DNA of 64,000 nucleotides from Octadecabacter arcticus 238 (GTDB taxonomy: Bacteria > Pseudomonadota > Alphaproteobacteria > Rhodobacterales > Rhodobacteraceae): assembly GCF_000155735.2 (NCBI RefSeq), contig NC_020908.1, forward strand, positions 1,245,001 through 1,309,000, written 5' to 3'. Position 1 is the stretch's first letter, and every line of letters starts with the position of its first letter. A model generated the notes under the pieces. That model was not told the DNA's origin, made no database searches, and saw nothing but the letters and a program-made list of their open reading frames with translations. A program made the translations under genes and the position numbers. Below, one piece after another: positions 27,309 through 41,019 of this stretch.

Positions 27309-27569
27309 GTGGTCTCCTTCAGCGCCAGCTTCACAACTTTGCGCCGCACCTCATCAGGAATGCGGTTCCAAACGTGTTTTGGTTTGGGAGATTGATCCTG
27401 CAACCCAGCCTCACCGCGTTGAAGGTATCGGTCGTACCAGCGATAGAATGTGGTGCGAGGAATACCCAGCTTGGCTAACGTCAGACGTGCCGATAGATGC
27501 GATCCTTACCACAAGCCGGATGATCTCCAGCGTCTCAGATGCCGGGTACCTCATTCGTGGTCGCCCCAT

Positions 27570-27612
27570 CCATTGCCCGGCAGGCGATTTCAAAGCAATC
27601 TGCCGAGAGGGG
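27570..27612 (-). repeat. Small palindromic element, copy 1
   Basis: On the minus strand it reads CTCTC, then an imperfect inverted repeat GGCAGATT..AAATCGCC, then TGCCGGGCAA. It lies between the orfA and orfB parts of the IS3 remnant, where related elements encode the end of OrfA. It shares the tail and layout with the copies at 28102, 28198, 31103 and 40428. Confidence 0.55.
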
Positions 27613-28101
27613 CCTATCATGCTTTTTTTGAGCAAACGGAGTTCAAGCGTTTGTTCCGCCACGACCTCCTTCAGGTCACGGGCCTCTTGGCGCAGGTCTT
27701 TGACTTCGTCAGTCGTGGCAGCACGGGCGGTGTCTCCAGCCAGTCGGCGCTTCCCAGCTCCATGAAGTCCTTCGACCATTTGTAATAGATGCCTTGGGAA
27801 AGGCCCTCACGACGGCACAGTTCGGCAATACTGTCTTCACCTCGCAGACCGTCCAAGACGATCCTGATCTTCTCTTCCGACGAATAATGCTTGCGGGTAG
27901 CCCGTTTGATATCTTTGACGAGCTTCTCGCCAGGGCTTTTGCGTATTCCAGTTGTCTGTCTCATGTTCCACTCCTCAGTGGTTACGATGAGCCAACAACT
28001 CTCTCCTATCAAATATGGCTATTGGGACCCATAAGCGCTGACGTCAGACAGTTCCAAACGTGTATCAGCTACGGCTGTCAAAGCATGGGTTCAAGGTCTC
28101 G

Positions 28102-28140
28102 CCCTCTCATGCATGTAAACAAACCACTGCCGGGCAGCGG
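28102..28140 (+). repeat. Small palindromic element, copy 2 (in-frame insert)
   Basis: A 39-bp insert runs from CCCTCTCATGCATG to TGCCGGGCAGCGG between GTCTCG and ATGAGTGGG of a transposase fragment, adding exactly 13 codons. Its left arm resembles copy 5 and its right arm (AAACAAACCAC) matches copy 4, so its stem is poorly paired. Confidence 0.75.
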
Positions 28141-28197
28141 ATGAGTGGGAAAGGTAATTGCTATGACAATTCGATGGTTGAGACGTTCTTCAAATCC

Positions 28198-28239
28198 ACT
28201 CTTATCGGTGAATATGAATATTCACCTGCCGGGCAAGGC
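28198..28239 (+). repeat. Small palindromic element, copy 3 (in-frame insert)
   Basis: A stem GGTGAATAT-GA-ATATTCACC (28207-28226) is followed at once by TGCCGGGCA (28227-28235). The insert is about 39 bp and keeps the transposase fragment in frame. Exact ends cannot be fixed because the native codon at the junction is unknown. Confidence 0.7.
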
Positions 28240-28431
28240 AAGGCAGAGTTGATCTGGCGCAACCGTTGGGACACACGCCGTCAGGCAGAAGGCGCGATCT
28301 TCCAGTATATCAGTGGGTTCTATAACCCGCGCCGCCGCCACTCATCACTAGGCGGCAAAAGCACCTTGGCATTCGAAAGAAAGGCCGCATAAATGAGTTC
28401 AGAGACCGGAACGTAAACGCGACAAGACCAC

Positions 28432-28476
28432 TTATCAAATTACCCTATTTGGACCCATAGGCGCTGATGTCTAACA
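28432..28476 (+). mobile_element. Solo right end of an IS3-family element
   Basis: TTATCAAAT..ATTTGGACCCATAGGCGCTGATGTCTAACA parallels the right end of the IS3 remnant (28006-28050) at most positions. It marks another, mostly lost, element of the same group. Confidence 0.6.
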
Positions 28477-28721
28477 GGCAGCATATGCTGATGACAACAC
28501 AACGCCTTCACGCCGCGAAATTTTTTAGCCGCTGATCGCGACCCAGCACAGTGCCAAAGTTGTACACGCCATTAAGCTCAGGGTGGCGATAGCGGAGATG
28601 AAGGTAAAGTAAGACTGTCAGATTGGACATTGGGGCGCGCAATTTTCTAATAAGTCGCCAAGAAGAAATAAAATTCGGCGACCCATTGTAACCGCATTTC
28701 GATGTACCCAATTCTCATACA
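28477..28721. other. 245 bp with no recognised gene upstream of groES
   Basis: A 67-codon minus-strand frame (28508-28711) has no features I recognise. The segment presumably holds the groES promoter near its right end. Confidence 0.4.
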
Positions 28722-28748
28722 TCGGCACTCAGGTGTGGCGAGTGCCAA
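28722..28748 (+). promoter_or_regulatory. CIRCE element (HrcA operator)
   Basis: TCGGCACTC-N9-GAGTGCCAA closely follows the CIRCE consensus TTAGCACTC-N9-GAGTGCTAA, with compensating changes that keep the arms paired. It lies 53 bp before the groES start, so HrcA repression of this groESL operon is expected. Confidence 0.9.
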
Positions 28749-28801
28749 TTAGTCTCTAAGTATGCCACCCATTCCCGGAAATCTTCAGAAGGAACATTTC
28801 C

Positions 28802-29089
28802 ATGTCGTTTACCCCCCTACATGACCGTGTCTTGGTTCGCCGCATCGACGGTGACGAAAAGACTGCAGGCGGCCTTATCATCCCCGACAACGCAAAAGAA
28901 AAACCTCAAGAAGGTGAAGTTATTTCCGTCGGTGCTGGCGCAAAAGACGACGCAGGCGCACGCATCGCTATGGACGTCAAAGCTGGCGATAAAATTCTGT
29001 TCGGAAAGTGGTCCGGTACTGAAATTAAGATCGACGGCGAAGAACTGATGATTATGAAGGAGAGCGACATTCTTGGCATCATGGCCTGA
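28802..29089 (+). CDS. groES: Co-chaperonin GroES
   Basis: The 95-residue protein has the N-terminal [14 protein letters not shown], the mobile loop around [17 protein letters not shown], and the C-terminal [16 protein letters not shown]. The heptamer caps GroEL during protein folding. CIRCE control is seen upstream, and groEL follows after 44 nt. Roseobacters often have more than one groESL set. Whether this one is the housekeeping copy cannot be decided from the window, though its position inside an IS-rich zone suggests an additional copy. Confidence 0.97.
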
Positions 29090-29118
29090 ACCTCGCACCT
29101 ATTATCCCATATTTTTAG

Positions 29119-30768
<1,650 letters not shown>

Positions 30769-30839
30769 ACGACCGCCGTCACGGCCTGCAGATGGAAGTT
30801 TGCAGGCCAGACCCATGCGTCGCCGATAAAAGATAAGAG

Positions 30840-30863
30840 ATTTACATTTTTGATGTAAATTTT
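30840..30863 (+). terminator. Terminator after groEL
   Basis: An 8-bp stem ATTTACAT / ATGTAAAT with a 5-nt loop is followed by TTT. A GC-rich hairpin (GGCCTGCA / TGCAGGCC) without a T-run lies just before it at 30783-30808. Confidence 0.6.
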
Positions 30864-30915
30864 CACAGTTAAAAAGTTGGATTGACGGTCGACTAAGAGC
30901 CGAGTTTCTGGTCGT

Positions 30916-30964
30916 CGACCTTCGACCTTCGACCTTCGACCTTCGACCTTCGACCTTCGACTTT
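30916..30964 (+). repeat. Tandem repeat of CGACCTT
   Basis: Six exact and one imperfect copies of a 7-bp unit lie between the groEL terminator and an IS110 remnant. No frame or known function is associated with it. Confidence 0.9.
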
Positions 30965-31102
30965 CAGCCAATCAGTTTAATTATTCTGGATCCGGCCATT
31001 GGTGCGCCCGCAGCGAAAGCTCACTTTGTTCTGTGTGGATGGCTCCTGCTTAGCAAGACATTTCTGATGCGATTTATTTTTGTCAGATGCGGTCTTATGT
31101 TC

Positions 31103-31138
31103 CCGCTGCCCGGCAGTGGTTTGTTTGCAAACCATGAG
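31103..31138 (-). repeat. Small palindromic element, copy 4
   Basis: On the minus strand: CTCAT, stem GGTTTG-CAAA-CAAACC, then ACTGCCGGGCAGCGG. It sits 13 bp past the stop codon of the IS110 remnant. The part from ACAAACC onward is identical to copy 2. Confidence 0.75.
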
Positions 31139-31150
31139 TATCCGTATTGG

Positions 31151-31329
31151 TCAAGCTGGATATTCGCCCCATTTTCGCTGATCCCGTAGAAGGGCATTTG
31201 CGGTGACAATCAGCTTTCGCATAACTGCTGTGATCGCCAGCTTCTTGCATTTCCCAGTCGATATCAGATGTTCGTATTTTGCCTTCATGTCTGGATTGAA
31301 GCGTGTTGCAACGGGTCTGTCAGATCATT
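31151..31329 (-). pseudogene. IS110-family transposase, C-terminal remnant
   Basis: The last about 59 codons read FNPDMKAKYEHLISTGKCKK, LAITAVMRKLIVTANALLRD and end WGEYPA before TGA. This matches the conserved end of the Transposase_20 domain. The rest is cut off by the IS3 that begins at 31330. Confidence 0.8.
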
Positions 31330-31368
31330 GAACTTCGTCCCGTTTTCCGGACAGTTTGCTTATTGACC

Positions 31369-32268
31369 CTACGCTGCCATTTTCCAAGTCATATCTTCGA
31401 AAGCCTGTTTTGGCGTTTTGTAGCCGACGCCTGAATGACGGCGCTGGCGGTTGTAGAAGACCTCAATGTATTCGAAGATGGCGGCCTTGGCCTCAGCGTG
31501 TGTTCTAAAGCGCCGCTGGTGAACCATCTCCTTTTTCAATGAAGCAAAGAAGCTTTCCATCGGCGCATTGTCGAGGCATTGGCCCTTGCGGCTCATGGAT
31601 TGAGTGAGTTTCGCCTTTTTGATCAGCTTGCGATAGTCCCCGCCAGCATATTGGCCGCCCCTATCGGAGTGGTGTATCAATCCCGGAACCGGGCCTCTGC
31701 GTCCCAGAGCCATCTCGAGGGCGGCGCAGCAAAGCTCCGCACGCATGTGATCCTCCATCGCCCAACCGACGATCTCACGCGTGGCTATGTCCTTCACGCC
31801 AGCCAGATAAAGCCAGCCTTCGTCCGTGTCGATATAGGTGATATCCGCCAGCCAAACGGCATTAGGCGTCTGGCTGTGGAATTTCTGTTCCAACAAGTTT
31901 GGGGATGGCTTCAGCTTATGATTGCTGTCCGTTGTGATTGGCTTTCTACGCTTGCGAAGAAGCGGGGACACCTTGTGTTCCTTCATTATTCTCGCAACAC
32001 GGCGCTCGGAGACGACCTCACTATCCGCCAGTAAGTCTTGGTAAATACGCTTTGATCCATAACATTTCTTACTGGCCTTGAAGAAGGTTTTTATCTTGGG
32101 AAGCAACGCCTGATCCCGAGCGTCGCGATTAGCTTGACGCTGATCACGTGCAGGCTGACTGGCTGGGAACCCGTAGAACCAGCCCCGGGATATCTCTAGA
32201 AGACGGCATAATATTGAAACCGCGTATTGAGCTTTATGGGCGGTGACGAAAGCACGCTTGTTCGTCAT
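31369..32268 (-). CDS. IS3-family transposase OrfB (integrase catalytic subunit)
   Basis: The 299-residue product has an N-terminal HTH_21 segment (KKCYGSKRIYQDLL) and the rve domain with WLADITYID (Asp, about 142), IHHSDRGGQYAG (Asp, about 200) and CLDNAPMESFFASLKKE (Glu, about 240). YNRQRRHSGVGYKTP closes the domain. It overlaps orfA by 4 nt, and a T6 run near the orfA end could allow the programmed frameshift that makes the OrfAB fusion. All catalytic residues are intact. Confidence 0.93.
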   Translation of the reverse strand: MTNKRAFVTAHKAQYAVSILCRLLEISRGWFYGFPASQPARDQRQANRDARDQALLPKIKTFFKASKKCYGSKRIYQDLLADSEVVSERRVARIMKEHKVSPLLRKRRKPITTDSNHKLKPSPNLLEQKFHSQTPNAVWLADITYIDTDEGWLYLAGVKDIATREIVGWAMEDHMRAELCCAALEMALGRRGPVPGLIHHSDRGGQYAGGDYRKLIKKAKLTQSMSRKGQCLDNAPMESFFASLKKEMVHQRRFRTHAEAKAAIFEYIEVFYNRQRRHSGVGYKTPKQAFEDMTWKMAA

Positions 32269-32561
32269 GGTTTCACCGCCCGCGCCGCGAAAAAAGCGGA
32301 TGCTTTGTGCAAAATCTCCACTTCCTCAGCAAGCCGCTTGTTGTCTTTGCGAAGGCGGAGCAATTCAGCCGCATCCGCCTGCTGACGCCGTTTGGCTTCA
32401 ACTGAGCCAAACGCCTCAATTTCCAAGCGCCACGTCTTCAGCTGCGTCCCAGTGATCCCAAGCTCCTTGGCAACGCTGCCTTGCGTCGCACCAGGCTCAT
32501 ATAACCGCTCAACTGCAGCTGCCTTATACTCGTCTGTATAATTGCGTCGATGTTGTCCCAT
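32265..32561 (-). CDS. IS3-family transposase OrfA (HTH)
   Basis: The 98-residue protein has a helix-turn-helix (RNYTDEYKAAAVERLYEPG, QGSVAKELGITGTQLKTWR) and a leucine-rich coiled coil (ELLRLRKDNKRLAEEVEIL). It binds the IS ends and is fused to OrfB by frameshifting in this family. Confidence 0.92.
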   Translation of the reverse strand: MGQHRRNYTDEYKAAAVERLYEPGATQGSVAKELGITGTQLKTWRLEIEAFGSVEAKRRQQADAAELLRLRKDNKRLAEEVEILHKASAFFAARAVKP

Positions 32562-32624
32562 TTGGTGCCCCTTTCACGGACTGGGGTAAAGTACCCCAAT
32601 GTCCGGCAACAGGGACGAAGTTCA

Positions 32625-33659
32625 ATTGACCCTTTAGAGGAAAAAAAGACGCGCAGGATTGAGCCAACAGTCGCAGACCTTGCATCAGATTGGCTTGATG
32701 TTCACGCGAGCGGCCTAAAGAGCGAGCAAGCCATTCGTTCGCTGATCGGTGGCGATCTTGTCAAAGCCATTGGAAGGATGAAAGTGACGGACGTGCGCAG
32801 GCGCGATGTGATTGAGGCGGTAGAAGCTAAAGCAACGACCGCACCGCGTCAGGCCGCTCTGATGCTGTCTTATGCGCGTATGCTGCTAGACTACGCCACC
32901 GACCGTGACATAGTCCGAGCTAACCCTGTTGCAGGATTGAAGCCGGCTTCAATTAAGGTGGCGGGCAAGCGTGATCCGCTTAAACCCGTCGTACGCTTAC
33001 GAGTGTTGGATGCTGAGGAAATTAAAAGCATGTGGGTGAACGTCGAATCCTGCGGGTTACATTTGCTGACGGGCCTTGCGCTCAAATTGGTTTTGGTGAC
33101 GGGCCAGCGACCCGGTGAAGTTGCGGGGATGCATGAGAACGAAATAAGTGGGCGGCTGTGGACTATTCCGGCAAGTCGCAGGGGCAAAACAAGCACTACA
33201 CAGACAGTATATCTGACTGACACTGCCTTAAATATCATCACTGTTGCAAAGGCTGAACTTGAACGCCTGCAGGGCCGCAGGAAGGGCGCACTGAGTGGCT
33301 ATATATTCGAGGCCAAAGGAGGCTCATCAATTACCAATTCGGCCTTGCCACGGGGCGTTCAGCGCTCCCATGAAGCTTTGGGGGTAAAGGATAATGAAAC
33401 CTGGGGACATTGGACGCCGCATGACTTGCGCCGCACCATGCGTACTGGACTTTCAGCATGTAAGATTGCCCCTCACATTGCCGAATTGACCATCGGCCAC
33501 ACCAAGCGTGGAATTGTTGCGACATACGATCAGCACACTTTTGATAGTGAGCGCCGAGATGCGATGATGGCTTGGGAGTTGCGGTTGATGACAATCGTCG
33601 CGGGGAATAACCCTGATGCAATAGTGGACAACGTTTTAAAGCTGGAGGCGAAGGCATGA
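32625..33659 (+). pseudogene. Tyrosine integrase (P4/DUF4102 type), 5' end lost to IS3
   Basis: The retained frame starts at the IS3 boundary with IDPLEEKK, which in P4-type integrases follows the arm-binding DUF4102 domain of about 80 residues. That domain is missing. The core-binding domain (TVADLASDWLDVHAS) and catalytic domain are whole: GQRPGEVAGM (Arg), HDLRRTMRTGL (HxxR), IGHTKRGIVATYDQH (His and Tyr). A frame starting at 32550 would begin inside the IS. Integration needs the N-terminal domain, so the element is probably locked in place. The stop overlaps the next gene's ATG. Confidence 0.85.
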
Positions 33660-34199
33660 CTGATCAGTTGCCTCAAGAAAGCCAGACTGCCAAAGACTTG
33701 CTGATAGAGCACTTCCCTGAAGTTGAATGGACAGAAGGCCAGTTGGATTTCTATTGTAATTTTTTGTCCCCAAGCTGGTTGACCGCTGGTAGTTTGGTGG
33801 AGGCTGTCGAGGCGAAGGTGGTGAACAAGCGGCTTGATAATATCGAACGCTTGGCGGATAATCTTTGGACTGAATATCACAAGCTTCCCCTCCAAGTGCG
33901 CGCGAAACGCTTAGGTGACGAAGAGCACGACCTTTGGCGACGACTTATGAAAGTGACATACGACATCACGGGTAAAACCCCTTTCGTAGTTCACGGTGCG
34001 GGGCAAGAAATAGTTGCCCGCGCCATGCCTCGAAAGATGGGTGCATTACGGAGGATGCGGGAGAGAGCTTCTAATTTTTTTCCCATGCATCACAACCAAC
34101 GTCAGTGTGAGTTTTCTAGTAAGGTACACCTAGTGACTCACTGCCGTGAGTTGTGGCTAGATCTCAAAGGTGAAGATGCGCCTGTCGCACCGTCGGCAG

Positions 34200-35419
34200 C
34201 AGGGGAATCGCGTTTGGAACTGAGTGAGTAAAGGATTGCTCTTGCAGGTGATGGCGGGATGGATTCTGGATGGGTGGTTGTTCTCATCGGGTGCTCATCG
34301 CCATGCATATTTTTCTATCCGCCTTCGACGAAGTTCCTGATCCGCGCGCCAGTAACGTGCGCCACGACCTTGGTGAACTGCTCGTTATCGCCTTCGTGTC
34401 GGTCTTATGTGGATCGACCTCCTGCGCCGAGATGGCCGCATTTGGCCGTGCAAAAGAGAGCTTTTTCAGGAACTTCCTGAAACTCAAGCATGCCATTCCA
34501 TCGCATGATACCTTCTCGGAGGTCTTCCGGATCATCGACCCGAAGGCACTCGATGCGGCCTTCAGTAAGGTACTTGCCGATGTGACCAAGCTCCTCAAAG
34601 ACGGTGATATCATCGCGATTGACGGCAAAGCGTTACGGGGTGCGCGCGACCCGGGCGAAAGCGCACGGACCCGCATGATGGTCTCAGCCTATGCCTCGCG
34701 GCTGCGCCTGACGTTGGCGACAGTACCTGCCGACTGAGGCACAGAACTCAGCGCGGCCATAGAGGCGCTTGGGTTGATCGATCTGCGGGGCAAGGTGGTC
34801 ACCGGTGATGCATTACATTGCAACCGCCGCACGGTTGCCGCAATCAACGCAGGCGGCGGTGATTGGTGCCTCGCCCTCAAGGGTAACCAGGAATCCCTGT
34901 TGTCTGACGCCCGTGGATGTTTCAGCAAGGGGCACAAAAGCGATCCAACAGCCGTTACGGAAAATACCGGCCATGGAAGAAAAGAAACCCGTAAGGCGGT
35001 TGTGGTATCGGCTAAGGCATTGGCAGAATACCACGAATTCCCTGGCCTCAAGGGGTTCGGTCGCATCGAGGCGACCAGAGAGACGGGCGGAAAGGTGACC
35101 TCAGAGACCCGCTACTTCGCGCTGTCTTGGGTTCCCACACCTGAGGTGCTGTTGGCCGCTGTCCGCGACCATTGGGCCATCGAAAATGCCCTTCATTGGC
35201 AGTTGGATGTGTCTTTCCGCGAGGACGCCGCACGCAATCGGAAAGACAACGGTCCCGGCAACATCGCCGTTCTACGTCGCCGCGCACTCGACGTCCTCCG
35301 GCGTGACACATCCAAGGGCTCTCTCTCCATAAAAATCAAACGTGCAGGCTGGGACACCACCTTCTTACGCAGCATTCTCAGTGACTTGGCAACAACATGA
35401 GCCAAACGCGATTGCCCTG
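34200..35419 (+). mobile_element. ISAs1-family element
   Basis: It is 1220 bp. The ends CAGGGGAATCGCGTTTGG and its inverted partner with CAGGGC are flanked by a 10-bp duplication CCGTCGGCAG (34190-34199, 35420-35429). Confidence 0.94.
34303..35400 (+). pseudogene. ISAs1-family transposase with TGA at mid-gene
   Basis: The frame from ATG 34303 (MHIFLSAFDEVPDPRASN) has the N-terminal DDE_Tnp_1-associated region and IAIDGKALRGARD (first Asp). It then has TGA at 34735-34737 inside VPAD-GTELSAAI, where a CGA codon is likely ancestral. The same frame continues with VTGDALHCNR (second Asp) and HWAIENALHWQLDVSFREDAAR (Glu) to 35400. One base change would restore it. Confidence 0.9.
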
Positions 35420-35622
35420 CCGTCGGCAGGAGCACCTTTCTATAACTTTGTTGGTGACGTAATTATGCAAGCTGGAAAAGAATGGTCTGTCGACGTCACC
35501 TTAAGAAAACATCGGATGTTCACTACAAACGAGTAAGCCAAATAAATCGTATTTACCTGAAAGTGAGATGTTCTAGACAATCACCGACTTTGACTCATGT
35601 TATTAACGCATGAGGCGACACA

Positions 35623-35829
35623 ATGGACTTTCAAAACGACTTAATACGCGAACCTGAATATGCGCGCCTGACCGGCCGCAATGTTAGAACCGTTCAACGC
35701 GAACGGGCAAGACGCATTGGCCCCGCTTTTATCCGTATTGGCCGTAAGGTTTTTTACCGCAAAGCCGCAATAGAAGCTTGGTTACTTGCTCAAGAGCAAG
35801 CTCAGCCAAGGTCAGTGAGGGGGCGGTAA
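35623..35829 (+). CDS. AlpA/excisionase-like helix-turn-helix protein
   Basis: This small 68-residue protein has a MerR-like winged helix: REPEYARLTGRNVRTVQRER (turn and recognition helix), IRIGRKVFYRKAAIEAWL (wing and second helix). Such proteins next to a tyrosine integrase regulate excision or early genes. It ends TAATG, sharing one base with the next gene's ATG. Confidence 0.85.
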   Translation: MDFQNDLIREPEYARLTGRNVRTVQRERARRIGPAFIRIGRKVFYRKAAIEAWLLAQEQAQPRSVRGR

Positions 35830-36332
35830 TGCATCAGGCAAAACAAACCACTATTTCAGCCAGAACTACAACTGGGGTTGATTATGCAAAAGCGGCTAGC
35901 TTTAGTAGGCAAGAAAATCTGGAAAGCAGTTGCAATGTAGTTGCAGGACTTATTGATAGCTTACTAGCCTCCGCCCGCTGCCGCCACGAAAGACGCGTCA
36001 CCACAGTCATGGTGCCGGCCAATTTGGGGCTCGATGATGCGCTCTCAATATGCACAATATACTTAGACCAGCATTGCGCAGGTGACCCGCATTATGACTC
36101 CTTTGGAAACATTCGGAAATCTGCGGATTGGTGGGCAGATCTTGCGAACATCGTTGAGTTTCAATGCTACTTTGCGGCAGCAATGAAATATTTTAAAGAT
36201 CAGATCTCGAGGGTCAAGGCACGAAAGTGCACATTCACTGCCCTTTGGTTTGCTTTAACTAATGAAGATCGACAGGCATCTTTGACCCGCGTTGACGCCA
36301 AAGGTAACTTTTATCGTAAAGGTGGCTCATGA
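35829..36332 (+). CDS. Hypothetical protein of the integrative element
   Basis: This is a 167-residue soluble protein from ATG 35829, which overlaps the upstream stop codon. Features are a central helical region rich in Trp and aromatic residues (SADWWADLANIVEFQCYFAAAMKYF, quoted here in part) and several cysteines. No family is recognised. It overlaps the following ATPase gene by 4 nt (ATGA), so the three genes form one operon. Confidence 0.7.
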   Translation: MHQAKQTTISARTTTGVDYAKAASFSRQENLESSCNVVAGLIDSLLASARCRHERRVTTVMVPANLGLDDALSICTIYLDQHCAGDPHYDSFGNIRKSADWWADLANIVEFQCYFAAAMKYFKDQISRVKARKCTFTALWFALTNEDRQASLTRVDAKGNFYRKGGS

Positions 36333-37522
36333 TGGATGATTTTCATGACTGGCCACCAATGCCGCCGGTTGAGACTTACCTGGAAGGCAAATTAAATGTG
36401 TCGACACAGTTGCAGTTTCCTACACCTTTTGTTTGGCAAGATCCGGCAACATTGCCGCGACGTCCGTGGCTCTATGGGCGTCACCTGTTGCGTCGCCAAG
36501 TCTCTGTCACTGTCGCACCGGGTGGTGTTGGTAAGTCTTCACTGACGATCTGTGAAGGGCTGGCGATGGCATCGGGTCGCGATTTGATGGGCGAATGGAT
36601 CGCTGATGATTTGTCTGTCTGGATATTCAACTTGGAAGACCCCCGCGACGAATTGCAACTGCGGATCACGGCGGCGATGCAACATCACAAGGTCGCGCCA
36701 GAGGAGATCGAAGGACGTTTATACGTGGACACTGGGCGTGAACGCGAACTTTGCACGGCTGTCGCTGGCCGTGATGGTACGAAGATCGTTAAGCCCGTAA
36801 TGGATGCACTGGCCGAAGAAATCATCTCTCGCAATATCGACGTTCTGGTGATCGACCCCTTTGTGTCGTCACACCGCGCAGGCGAGAATGACAACAACGC
36901 AATTGATATGATTGCTAAGGAATGGGCGCGGCTGGCCGATAGGTGCAATTGCGCAATCGAGTTGGTTCACCATACGCGAAAAACCAATGGAGCTGAAGCG
37001 ACAACGGAAGATGGGCGTGGCGGGTCTGCCCTGCTGGCTGCTGCACGTTCAGGCCGTGTCCTCAATAAAATGGCGGATAATATGAAGGAGGACGCCGGCA
37101 TCCCTGCGTCGGACCTGCGCACATATTTCGCAGTTATCCGTGATAAGGCTAACTTAGCGCCGGTGGGCAAGCGACAATGGCGTCGCATGGAAACTTTTGA
37201 GATGGCCAATGGTGAAGACGTTGGTGTCTGTGAGGCCTGGGAATGGCCTGACACGTTTGACGGTATGACTTCCAAAGACCTGTTGGCTGTCCAGAACGCA
37301 ATCGAAGGCAAGGCTGCACGGTTCTCTGAACAAGCTGGCGACCAATGGGTGGGCTGCATTGTGGCCGATGTGCTCGGCATAGATGTCATCAAAAATCGCA
37401 AGCGTATCAAGCGGATCATAGCAGGATGGTTGCAATCTGGGGCGTTTGTGAAGGGTGAGGCCTATGGCCCGCAACGCCGCAAGGTGCCGGTTCTGGAGGT
37501 GGGTGAATGGGCAACCGAATGA
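36329..37522 (+). CDS. AAA family ATPase (RepA/AAA_25 type, replicative helicase-like)
   Basis: The 397-residue protein has Walker A as APGGVGKSSLTIC near residue 65, Walker B as DVLVIDPFVSS near 170, and a RecA/RepA-like sensor segment CAIELVHHTRKTNG near 210, followed by a GGSALLAAARS motif. This is the AAA_25 (RepA helicase) architecture found in integrated elements and small plasmids. The C-terminal about 80 residues look like a winged-helix domain (IKNRKRIKRIIAGWLQSGAF). It may unwind the element's DNA for replication. It ends the operon. Confidence 0.85.
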   Translation: MMDDFHDWPPMPPVETYLEGKLNVSTQLQFPTPFVWQDPATLPRRPWLYGRHLLRRQVSVTVAPGGVGKSSLTICEGLAMASGRDLMGEWIADDLSVWIFNLEDPRDELQLRITAAMQHHKVAPEEIEGRLYVDTGRERELCTAVAGRDGTKIVKPVMDALAEEIISRNIDVLVIDPFVSSHRAGENDNNAIDMIAKEWARLADRCNCAIELVHHTRKTNGAEATTEDGRGGSALLAAARSGRVLNKMADNMKEDAGIPASDLRTYFAVIRDKANLAPVGKRQWRRMETFEMANGEDVGVCEAWEWPDTFDGMTSKDLLAVQNAIEGKAARFSEQAGDQWVGCIVADVLGIDVIKNRKRIKRIIAGWLQSGAFVKGEAYGPQRRKVPVLEVGEWATE

Positions 37523-38425
37523 TGTGCGTGACCACCTCAAGAATGGTGGTAGCGCAGGGTCGCGCAGACCATTGCAAATCAGGTGCGCCACTACCACCAC
37601 CCCCTAAAGGGGGTGGGTGGTAGTGGTCGCGTTGCATGCCTTCATGGTGGGGTAGTGGCGCAAGCTGGTTTTGATAAAGTGTAAATCGCGCTTTCAAAAG
37701 CATAGGGGGGTGGGCGCAGGTTGTTGTTATGCGTTTGATCTGTTTAACTGGCCGCAGTTTCTGGGATGTGAATCTGTCAATATCTAATTGAGTGATAATC
37801 TGACCCCATCGATTATAAGGGAGGGGTGGGTCAAATCGCTCCAGACTCTTTATGGCGCAGACCCACTACACCCCCACGCGCAGATTTTATTTCCCGGTAA
37901 GAGTTAGTATTTGGTGCATGACGACAGTTACACCTTCGAGGATAAGGGTGTTGAGTAACTGTAACAATTATTGCTTTTAAACCGTTTATATTCAGTATCT
38001 TAAGGGCACTCTCTTAGAGCGTTTGTCGCGACGATGCTTTTTGGTCAAAGTTCAAATCGTTTTTCCCGAAACGTGTAATTATGGTTGGAAAAGCTGCTGT
38101 TCGGAGCTAATTAATAAGTGTTGTTTCCGGCCCTGAGCTGCCTTTCGCCACCTCTTTAATTTGCTGCAGTGCGGCCCGTCGAAGCCGCTCTCTGTCTGTG
38201 GTTAAGTCAAGGGTGTTAGGTTCTGTGTCTTCCGGGTCCGTGGTTCTCTACGAGGTCAGGGATTATCCTGCCTCCTGATGGCGTACGGGACTGATCTGCC
38301 AAAATGTCATTCACGAGGTTGGGATTTGCCCACCTCAGCCGCTTTTCTGGCTCGATCTGCCTCCGTCCCGGAGGACGTCGAACCTACCCCTTGTCTCTCG
38401 GGCAGGTATTCAAAATCTCAATCTC
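37523..38425. other. About 900 bp without a recognised gene
   Basis: Apart from a strong hairpin at 37588-37626, nothing is recognised here. It may hold the far end or origin region of the integrative element. Plus-strand frames near 38300 are antisense to an IS110 gene and are not counted. Confidence 0.5.
37588..37626 (+). repeat. Strong inverted repeat after the AAA ATPase gene
   Basis: An 18-bp stem (CCACTACCACC.. / ..GGTGGTAGTGG) has one bulged G and a 2-nt loop. It lacks a T-run on the plus strand, so a plain terminator is not certain. Roles in replication or as a recombination site are possible. Confidence 0.8.
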
Positions 38426-39465
38426 TCAGCTGGCGCCCCCCATTCCAGGCTCAAACACTTTTTCGTTTCGCCAGAGGCAATGTAGGAGGACAGCAATTTT
38501 CCGGGAGGCGGCCACAGCTGCTTTCTTGTGCCCTTTGCGCTCGGCTAACTTTGTTGCCCACTCTTTCAAACGAGAGGGCTTTCTCGTGCAACTGATCAAT
38601 GTTGATGCGGCTGAGTATAATAACCGGCGCATATCACAATCACCGCATTTGGATATTTTACCCGACCAATCCACCTCGCCCGATTGATGGCGTTTTGGTG
38701 TGAGGCCAAGGAAAGCCCCAACATCGACCGATTTCCTGAACCGTTTTCATCGTCCAGTGTCGCGATATATGCCAACGCCACGATGGGACCAACTCCTGGT
38801 ACGGTCATCAGTCGACGCGCCAGCTCACTTTCTCGCGCCATCATCCTTACTTGGTCGTCCAGCGCATCTCTGGCAATGCAGAGTGTCTTGTGCAGAGGGA
38901 TGAATGTTTCTGACAACAGCGCAATCGCCGGATCCGTATCCGCCGCAGCTACGAGTTGATCTCGAAAGTCCCTTCGCAACTTCCCCGTTCCAACCGACGT
39001 CATGCAAACACCGAACACCTTGAGAACGCCACGTACATGACCTTCAAGATCCTTACGCATACGGATCAGCCGCTCGCGGGCACCAATGAGAACGCGCACG
39101 CGCTCCGATGCCTCGCTGCGGATATGGACCTGAGTGAACCAACCCGTTCGCGCCAACTGAGCCAGTCCTTCAGCATCGCCCTGATCGGATTTGTTAATGC
39201 GCCCCGACAACGCTTTGTGCGCGAGACGCGCATCGATGCAAATGATCGGCACACCACGTTTCTCTAACTCACGGGTCAACCAAATCGCCAGAATGCCGCT
39301 CTCATGAACAACCCGCTCTACGTCTGGCGCGTGCTTCGAGATAAAGTTCGAGATCAAATCTGGATCTGTTGAGATATCCGTGCGCGCCGCAACAACGCCC
39401 TTGTCATCCATAATACAAATCGACGTTTCTTTGACGGACACGTCCAATCCAACATAATATGCCAT
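38426..39465 (-). pseudogene. IS110-family transposase with one frameshift
   Basis: From ATG 39465, MAYYVGLDVSVKETSICI carries the first Asp of the DEDD RuvC-like domain, followed by INKSDQGDAEGLAQLART and the Transposase_20 segment MTVPGVGPIVALAYIATLDD. Right after DDENG (about 38740) the frame shifts. The continuation FRKSVDVGAFLGLTPKRHQS, WSGKISKCGDCDMRRLLY to the stop at 38426 is in another frame. The C-terminal Ser region is therefore lost from the main frame. Confidence 0.88.
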
Positions 39466-39664
39466 TGTCGTTCTCCTTTGTGGCTGCTTCATTGAGGCCA
39501 GTATACTGTACCTCGTTTACCCAGGAGAGCGGCATCCACAGACACACCATGTCATTCGTGCAGAGCGCAGCATTTTGTTGGCTGACCCAAACGCCGCCGC
39601 CGCGTGGCGTCACGCAGCCGGATAATATCTTGAGGCGATGATCAGGTTGCCTTAAGCCAGCAAT

Positions 39665-39784
39665 TCAAGCGTTCGGAGGAACGATCTTCGCCAGCTTAAT
39701 AAGCCCCTTTGGGATTAAGAGAACCTGTTCGGCGATCTTTTCTGACCCGTCAGAACGTGTGACCGTCTTTGTCTTATGCTCCAT
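39665..39784 (-). other. 39-codon reading frame next to an IS3 end, unrecognised
   Basis: MEHKTKTVTRSDGSEK continues to LLIPKGLIKLAKIVPPNA and a stop. It starts 10 bp from the left end of the IS3 element and may be the tail of a gene cut by that insertion. I do not recognise it. The rest of 39466-39793 holds nothing I can name. Confidence 0.25.
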
Positions 39785-39855
39785 CAGGCCTTGTTAAGTG
39801 GTCCTGCTTTTTTTGGACAGTTTTGCGGCTTGGCTGAGATGCATCTGGTGTGAGT

Positions 39856-41019
39856 TCATGCCACTTTTCGTATCTCGGCGTGGCCAAAAGTATGCGATGT
39901 CCGGAGTGCGCTTATCAAGGGCAGTGTGAGGGCGCTCTGAGTTGCAGAACTCAATCCAGTCATCGATAATCCGTTTCGCTTGAAACTGTCTGTGATTTCA
40001 TGCAGATAGACTGCCTTTTGTTTCAACAACGGCCACAGGCGTTCGATAAAGATGTTGTCCAGATAGCGGCCCCTGCCAACCATCGATATTTTGATGTCAG
40101 ATTTGGTCAAAGTTGTGATCCAACTGGAGCCTGTATATTGGCTGACTTGGTCCGTATTCATTATCTCTGGCTTGCCATATCGGGCAATTGCCTCCTCCAA
40201 CGCCTCAACACAAAAGCTTGCATCCAACGTATTGGAAAGCCGCCAGGTCAAAACTTTACGGGTCGCCCAATCCATGATTGTACCAGATACAGAAAGCCAT
40301 TTTTGACTGGAATATAGGTGATGTCGCTGATCCAAACCTGATTGGTTCGGGTGATTGCCAGTTTTCTCAGCAGGTAAGGGTAAATGCGGTGCTGTGGGTG
40401 CTTCTTGCTGGTGTTCGGCCCCTTGTACAATCTCGTGCATGTAAACATGCACTGCCGGGCAGCGGATGGCCTGCACCCCATGATGTTCATCAGGCGACGA
40501 ACACGGTGTCGTCCGGCCGAGAAGCCAGACTGAGGAAGGTAAGCAACAATCTGGCGACTTCCGAAAACTGGTATTTGGTGAACACCCTATCAATCTCATG
40601 CATCAGCTTAAGTGTCTCAGCATTCACCCCAACTGGTGTGTAATAGATCGACGAACGGCTGATCTTGAGCAGCCACACTGGCGCGTCAGGCTCAGTTTTG
40701 AGTTATCTTTGCGGATCATCTCGCGGCGTTTTAATGGGCTCACCGCTTCAGCCCTTGTGACAAAAAAACGTTCTCCACCGCCAGCTGACCAATCTTGGCG
40801 TGCATCTCCTTTATCTCACCGTCCGTATTCTCAGCCTTTTTTTACCGTTTCGGAAAAAACGCCTGCCATGCTTTTGATCGCCTGACGTTTCCATGTGCCC
40901 ACCTGTGTAGGGTGGAGTTGGCGCTTGGCCGCAATCTCCTGAACCGTCTTGTCACCGCGCAGCGCTTCAAGCGCCACAGCAGCTTTAAACTGGTCTGAAA
41001 AGTTCCGTCGCTTTGTCAT
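39856..41019 (-). pseudogene. IS3-family orfA/orfB with multiple frameshifts
   Basis: orfA begins at 41019 (MTKRRNFSDQFKAAVALEAL) and loses frame after VFSETVKKG. orfB pieces follow: LLKISRSSIYYTPVGVNAET, NTSKKHPQHRIYPYLLRK, NQVWISDITYIPVKNGFLYL (first Asp), TIMDWATRKVLTWRLSNTLD, EIMNTDQVSQYTGSSWITTL and YLDNIFIERLWPLLKQKA (Glu). These are spread over at least three frames. One shift is caused by the 37-bp palindromic insert at 40428. A Gly to Val change in the NTDQ motif adds to the decay. Confidence 0.88.
40428..40464 (+). repeat. Small palindromic element, copy 5
   Basis: A 37-bp insert consists of CAATCTC, a perfect stem GTGCATGT-AA-ACATGCAC, and TGCCGGGCAGCG. It splits the transposase sequence VQAI-YKGPNTSKK and shifts its frame. 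Confidence 0.8.

Follow-up and report, generated by a model that had tools for sequence, protein, structure and literature searches.

Short DNA hairpins with fixed ends and free stems interrupt insertion sequences in Rhodobacterales

What are the short palindromic units that lie among transposase remnants in Octadecabacter arcticus 238, and how do they come to be there? The stretch analysed, called the window, measures 64,000 nucleotides (contig NC_020908.1, positions 1,245,001 to 1,309,000). A preliminary description had noticed five copies of such a unit between window positions 27,570 and 40,464, each made of a lead, an inverted repeat varying from copy to copy, and a conserved tail. These copies belong to a large family, and we are inclined to view its members as non-autonomous mobile DNA hairpins of about 37–43 bp, recognised by shape, which parasitise insertion sequences (ISs). 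Genomes and loci are denoted below by G and L numbers, G000 being the genome of O. arcticus 238 itself.

The window was searched, filters off, by means of a covariance model derived from ten copies located elsewhere in G000, the leads of which were lightly edited by hand. All five copies were recovered at the positions first proposed, as the five best matches: 31102–31138 (minus strand) and 40431–40466 (plus strand), both at E = 3e-7, 27569–27612 (minus; E = 3e-6), 28101–28141 (plus; E = 7e-6), and 28199–28236 (plus; E = 0.018). The sixth match has E = 0.46. A 9-base motif of the unit, taken alone, is not enriched in the window (37 matches with at most one mismatch, 31.9 expected); it is insufficient to define the family, the evidence for which is the combination of lead, stem and tail. 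No Rfam family matched the window at gathering scores.

The consensus unit reads CCCTCTC, A or G, stem, C, TGCCGGGCAGTG, the stem being free in sequence. The CTC-like lead of the preliminary description is thus present, CCCTCTC being its family form. Units measure 37–43 bp because the spacing between CTCTC and TGCC varies: it is 18, 19, 20, 21, 22 and 23 bases at 42, 25, 25, 9, 48 and 1 of 150 distinct sites, respectively (the pattern admitted 16 to 23 bases, and a few 24-base units are known besides). Most units are 37, 38 or 41 bp long, and length is divisible by three at only 26 of the 150 sites. The 22-base class, which corresponds to the 41-bp units, retains a bulged, or extrahelical, A. 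Stem positions form Watson-Crick pairs at a frequency of 0.81–0.91, depending on the class, compared with means of 0.51–0.68 (maximum 0.73) when 3' arms are permuted among elements, and 0.10–0.30 when arms are slid (42, 31, 38, 24 and 59 distinct sequences per class, after removal of three misparsed ones). The arms covary well above both controls, and the early view that structure is kept while stem sequence is free holds; the doubt that relatives might carry no further covarying copies is dispelled by the number of such copies. Stem mismatches include 31 G.T and 49 A.C, and a sense-strand preference for wobble pairs is absent. Because there is no G-U excess, the structure under conservation seems to be one of DNA and not of sense RNA. 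When four typical examples were folded as single-stranded DNA the stem formed in three, two of which add the tail hairpin CTGC-CGG-GCAG, or part of it.

Uninterrupted relatives were found in the retrieved DNA for 203 of 273 distinct sites by an automatic criterion (46 of them were listed, some weak). In an IS5-type pair, the empty L177 (G006) and the filled L014 (G000) are 99% alike, and the insert equals the unit, without duplication. In an IS30-type pair, with L035 empty and L059 filled, the insert likewise equals the unit, without duplication. Empty homologues of the second copy of the window (L176 and L180) reveal 1 extra base at the insertion, 1 bp being duplicated. Insertion is therefore near-seamless in the inspected cases, with 0 or 1 bp duplicated, as learned by the comparison with empty sites that the preliminary description had proposed; its reservation that tail and stem could be part of the normal sequence of the ISs is set aside by the existence of uninterrupted IS homologues. 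The four target bases after the tail are G (89%), A (82%), T or C (87%), and G (56%) at 150 sites, so that the TGCCGGGCAGTG end lies mostly against GAY. The opposite end is less sharp. From 0 to 7 C residues precede CTCTC, in part target sequence, in part an apparent replacement of target bases. In L032, compared with L034 (both G000), three target bases upstream of the element are apparently swapped for a longer C run. The length of the open frame across the junction was dropped as a criterion (of 266 cases, the longest frame came from the exact join in 114 and from the two off-by-one joins in 80 and 72). The test does not discriminate and is uninformative because GC-rich DNA has long chance frames.

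The family is found in many copies in related genomes, which agrees with its first portrayal as a set of short mobile-looking elements. In each genome only the 150 best covariance candidates were scored (G000 yielded 3949 candidates). G000 (5.48 Mb, three contigs) holds elements at a minimum of 113 places at E ≤ 1; G006 has at least 150 copies, G025 61, and G031 34. The 14-base tail has 151 matches in G000 with up to 2 mismatches, compared with 69 for the reversed pattern. Matches at E ≤ 0.01 occur in 19 of the 61 genomes sampled, a count that includes G000, and the spread is patchy; 24 genomes from other families of the class gave no match at this threshold. An exact-pattern scan of GTDB found at least 119 stretches, and among the 80 rows listed nearly all are from Rhodobacterales. 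The exceptions listed are Vreelandella neptunia (2), a Hyphomicrobiales metagenome-assembled genome (MAG) and a Robiginitomaculum MAG; two further MAGs are labelled Alphaproteobacteria only. The V. neptunia elements (L193, L217) reside on a gammaproteobacterial contig, perhaps brought in by IS transfer. The element occurs also in four viral contigs, and in plasmid records, 76 with one hairpin type and 11 with another; no phage record matched a third hairpin type. A plasmid of O. antarcticus carries the element at an IS66 gene. Plasmid annotation under the element is mostly featureless, in a feature table without pseudogenes. The same hairpin precedes up to 9 different 12-base downstream flanks. 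Ten elements cluster in locus L330 of G006, one with arms of different types.

Host genes were surveyed at 40 sites, drawn at random from the 112 within the GTDB-scan loci, one flanking open reading frame (ORF) per site being chosen by a codon-composition heuristic. Pfam matches are to transposase, integrase-core, IS ATPase or HTH_21 families at 24 sites, and to generic helix-turn-helix (HTH) families only at 3; 13 sites have no match. Some matches fall below the Pfam cut-off, and no other kind of gene appeared among the matches at these 40 sites. At the 27 sites with a match, 13 elements are in sense and 14 in antisense orientation to the host gene; a sense-strand bias seen in the first by-eye translations vanished with these calls. 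Ten of the 16 sites without an empty homologue in G000 and G006 were examined: two have matches to IS66, one to a DDE family, one weakly to HTH_21 and one to a tyrosine recombinase, and five have none. The recombinase match is at L007 (G000), where the element adjoins this frame and not a transposase gene. Hosts are thus mobile genes and not transposases alone. A limited set of transposase pieces matched about 30 of 53 sites in 40 further stretches, the others being without assignment.

Elements at the same site tend to share the hairpin. From 361 element contexts 184 same-site pairs were obtained. Draws took one element per genome and site. For elements of different genomes at the same site, the variable parts were no more than 3 differences apart in 38% of draws; at other sites the figure was 4.6% (82 pairs per round in 26 site clusters, with certain loci of a single genome treated as separate). 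Among pairs with flanks 75–85% alike, 29 of 63 show at most 6 element differences (3.1% on average in these selected pairs); in around half of the same-site pairs that have diverged, the hairpins are clearly unlike. The pN/pS of the flanks (nonsynonymous over synonymous differences, each per site) is 0.26 in 59 linked pairs and 0.29 in 47 unlinked ones, values of which only the comparison is informative, frames having been chosen to minimise them and sides with indels or no open frame dropped. Most of the flank divergence thus arose in working IS lineages. Flank divergence is lowered solely within the first 15 bases after the tail, in unlinked pairs too, to a lesser degree. Possible causes of the linkage are an active type at a shared hot spot, homing, or recombination. 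L390 (G006, IS1182-type by eye) resembles L330 upstream of the element and L393 downstream, the switch of parents falling at the element or in the identical stretch after it. An exclusive link of one loop variant to the IS30 site was considered and dropped, as the variant resides also elsewhere in G006 (L330).

Interrupted ISs multiply. In G031, all six full copies of an IS3-type element hold the same four elements, the other six matches being fragments, and two of the filled copies bear their own 3-bp target duplications. In G006, 10 of 10 copies of another IS3-type element hold the same two elements, and no empty full copy was found among the 40 of 155 candidates scored. In orfA of some copies of the latter, a tandem repeat right next to the element adds 12 bases in frame (GISQ; L312–L318 compared with L320–L327). 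In one IS of G006, omission of six recognised orfB elements gives a single frame, bar one further interruption. Filled copies differ by 12 nonsynonymous and 3 synonymous codon variants in one family (six copies, sites 846:252), and by 5 and 1 in a second (nine copies, sites 768:231). Taken together the variants are 17:4, near the ratio of sites, and all 11 variants found in two or more copies are nonsynonymous; the small numbers fit neutrality. Rapid rewriting of stems between near-identical IS copies was considered and rejected. Elements in G031 vary at the rate of the flanks: they make up 12% of the length and hold 3 of the 26 variable positions. An IS5-type family of G000 has eight filled and two empty copies. 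The IS30-type family of this genome, judged from the 40 candidates scored out of 130, has five filled copies and 34 matches of empty length, 20 of which were read and are empty. Of the filled copies, the one nearest to the empty ones departs from them at 4–6 of 360 flank positions, the others at 10 or more; in a tree that leaves out 8 of 36 rows lacking a flank no fork is supported. Filled copies beside empty ones suggest the IS30 family as a setting for help in trans. We consider mobilisation in trans more likely than splicing or bypass, because filled ISs multiply while the variation among their copies looks neutral, though two further pairs (L031/L043 and L161/L164, described below) look constrained and favour the opposite.

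Fixed ends, a free but paired hairpin, near-seamless insertion in the inspected cases, mostly next to GAY, free orientation, host genes that are mostly those of mobile elements, and occurrence of a unit at several sites characterise the family. A mechanism can be proposed on these grounds. The substrate would be a folded single DNA strand, recognised by its shape plus the end sequences, and a recombinase supplied in trans would move it. Survivors may accumulate in transposase genes, as an IS is dispensable, is present in many copies, and would carry the insert to new genomes; interrupted IS copies would in turn be moved in trans by intact relatives. More tentatively, and with some doubt, the elements could represent a new class of mobile DNA, a hairpin of about 40 bases parasitic on ISs across Rhodobacterales, for which shape and two short end sequences, not the stem, would serve for recognition, and which re-enters the same site in diverged ISs with its own hairpin type.

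Several results weigh against mobile hairpins of this kind. The preliminary description had suggested a search for a co-occurring RAYT- or HUH-type gene. Two Pfam families, Y1_Tnp (PF01797) and Y2_Tnp (PF04986), were searched in the 61 genomes and found in 11 and 7, respectively. The Y1 enzyme (RAYT/IS200-type) does not co-occur with the elements, and Y2 (IS91-type) does so only in part. Y1_Tnp is absent from G031, G020, G017, G007 and G008, which have 34, 11, 9, 11 and 6 element matches (E ≤ 0.1), and from the element-bearing G001 and G024; it is present without elements in G033. Y2_Tnp is found in G000, G006, G020 and G025, is absent from G031, G017, G007 and G008, and is present without elements in G035, G039 and G043. 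Of 235 distinct tails in the retrieved DNA, 222 have a lead at the usual distance, and among the 13 others 11 look degenerate and 2 do not; no longer, enzyme-bearing version is found among these tails. As to structure, the 20-base example folded as single-stranded DNA forms the tail hairpin instead of the stem, and the z-scores of folding, -1.3 to -2.2, are no more than modest. L031 and L043, which share two identical elements, diverge by 7% in their flanks; 14 of the differences are nonsynonymous and 21 synonymous (pN/pS 0.24), and separate counts over the first 150 bases past one element are 9 and 6. L161 and L164 differ by 29 and 17 (pN/pS 0.52), a value partly doubtful because the alignment differs by 8% and BLAST gives 3.5%. 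The linkage of site and stem, like the low pN/pS of these two element-sharing pairs, is not predicted by simple hitch-hiking of dead copies.

Four other explanations have been weighed. In the first, the element spreads by homing to specific sites, or by gene conversion over short tracts among copies of one IS, and only rarely jumps to a new site. This would account for the hairpins common to a site across genomes, for their persistence in the 29 pairs with diverged flanks, and for the IS1182-type mosaic, in which parents switch at or next to the element. We hold this to be unlikely, as roughly half of the diverged same-site pairs differ clearly in hairpin, and the drop in flank divergence is limited to 15 bases and is seen, if less, in unlinked pairs. 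Nearly the same small weight, slightly reduced, is given to removal of the element from the message, or its skipping by the ribosome, as a mini-intron or bypassing element that leaves the transposase functional. The multiplication of element-laden ISs in G031 and G006, the single frame obtained by omitting six elements, and the pN/pS of L031/L043 speak for it. This explanation is hard to reconcile with orientations equally common (13:14), shared codon variants all nonsynonymous, no constant codon before or after the insert, elements that vary at the flank rate, and the lack of both a G-U excess and of Rfam matches in the window.

Insertion of a folded RNA by reverse transcription appears less probable still. 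It would explain one precise end and a variable C run at the other, with C residues seemingly replacing target bases (L032 compared with L034, L161 with L157), and units with mixed arms fit template switching; but wobble pairs are not in excess, and the C run equals in part C residues of the target. A host defence that inactivates transposases with frame-shifting hairpins is very improbable. Host genes are mostly transposases, and in sense orientation GAY is often, by eye, the Asp codon of a conserved motif; yet in the 14 antisense inserts among the 27, GAY does not encode Asp, filled ISs multiply, and the same unit occurs at several sites.

The copies of the window illustrate the variety of the family. 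Copies 1 to 3 lie within IS3-type transposase remnants at 27411–28392. Copy 1 (27571–27611, minus strand) is a 41-bp unit of the bulged-A class with one stem mismatch, set near the orfA/orfB overlap; annotated relatives are IS3 transposases, and L231 and L233 are filled at the same site. Copy 2 (28102–28139, plus) is a 38-bp unit within an orfB remnant. Its arms are of two types, as first noted, and do not pair, and it folds no better than shuffles. Copy 3 (28199–28238, plus), 60 bp past copy 2 in the same remnant, has a divergent lead (CTCTTATC) and a paired stem; both share one open frame, 28060–28392. Copy 4 (31104–31140, minus) has a degenerate lead (ATACTCAT) and the stem TGGTTTG/CAAACCA. 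It resides outside any recognisable ORF, adjoining an IS3-type copy according to a by-eye reading of ORFs, and its 5' flank recurs at G000:C1:300341–300377 (L010). Copy 5 (40428–40464, plus) is a 37-bp unit with the stem TGCATG/CATGCA, antisense within an ORF at 39856–40599 (minus) read by eye as an IS3-type orfB remnant; L005 has a near-identical copy at the same site. The arms of copies 1 (with bulge and mismatch), 3, 4 and 5 pair, in line with the four perfect or near-perfect stems initially recorded. The placement of all copies in or beside IS remnants stands for 1 to 3 and, by eye, for 5 and for 4, which lies beside an IS. An ORF pair resembling groES/groEL, as read from the ORFs, lies between IS remnants at 28802–30768, and the 7-mer CTTCGAC forms a short tandem run at 30918–30964.

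The family seems to be without earlier description in the openly licensed literature searched. A search for 'palindromic element' or TGCCGGGCA gave no paper with the motif among the results listed, and neither 'palindrom' nor 'repeat' was found by a term search in the main text of PMC3646047. Searches on repeats and genomes of Octadecabacter, Rhodobacteraceae palindromes, bypassing, interrupted transposases, miniature hairpins, Rickettsia palindromic elements (RPEs) and Roseobacter repetitive extragenic palindromic (REP) sequences gave no description of this element among the papers listed. The elements come closest to RPE-like palindromes and to non-autonomous single-strand transposons, yet lack defining features of both. 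RPEs are, according to PMC10969869, about 150 bp long and mostly in frame in ordinary genes. Both are short palindromic repeats inside genes of alphaproteobacteria, but the units described here, at 37–43 bp, are mostly frame-shifting and lie in mobile-element genes in both orientations. The likeness to in-frame RPEs first suggested is abandoned, since only 26 of 150 lengths are divisible by three, most units being 37, 38 or 41 bp, and orientation is free.

Non-autonomous elements derived from IS200/IS605, and REP/RAYT units, are hairpins that move in trans, make no target duplication and have a one-sided target motif. The present elements share the hairpin, the lack of duplication (copy 2 of the window has 1 bp) and the one-sided motif, but are shorter, with a free stem sequence, do not co-occur with a Y1 transposase, and have shown no guide tetranucleotide. 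Integron attC sites are folded single strands recognised by shape, with a variable terminal hairpin. The variable hairpin and the extrahelical A of the 41-bp class are reminiscent of them, but an attC-type core (RYYYAAC/GTTRRRY) was not seen in the consensus or, by eye, in the units, nor was a cassette. Mobile bypassing elements (byps) and GC clusters of yeast mitochondrial DNA are hairpins of comparable size inserted in genes. Bypass is disfavoured here by the free orientation and by the neutral variation seen in host genes of two IS families, and the hosts are bacterial.

If the interpretation as mobile hairpins is true, the elements would rank with the smallest known units of mobile DNA, and would be parasites of parasites. 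They could explain why transposase annotation is split or missing at some loci, as for the IS66 gene on the O. antarcticus plasmid. With hundreds of units, fixed ends, free covarying stems, empty sites and multi-copy hosts, the family would provide a natural experiment on DNA recognised by shape.

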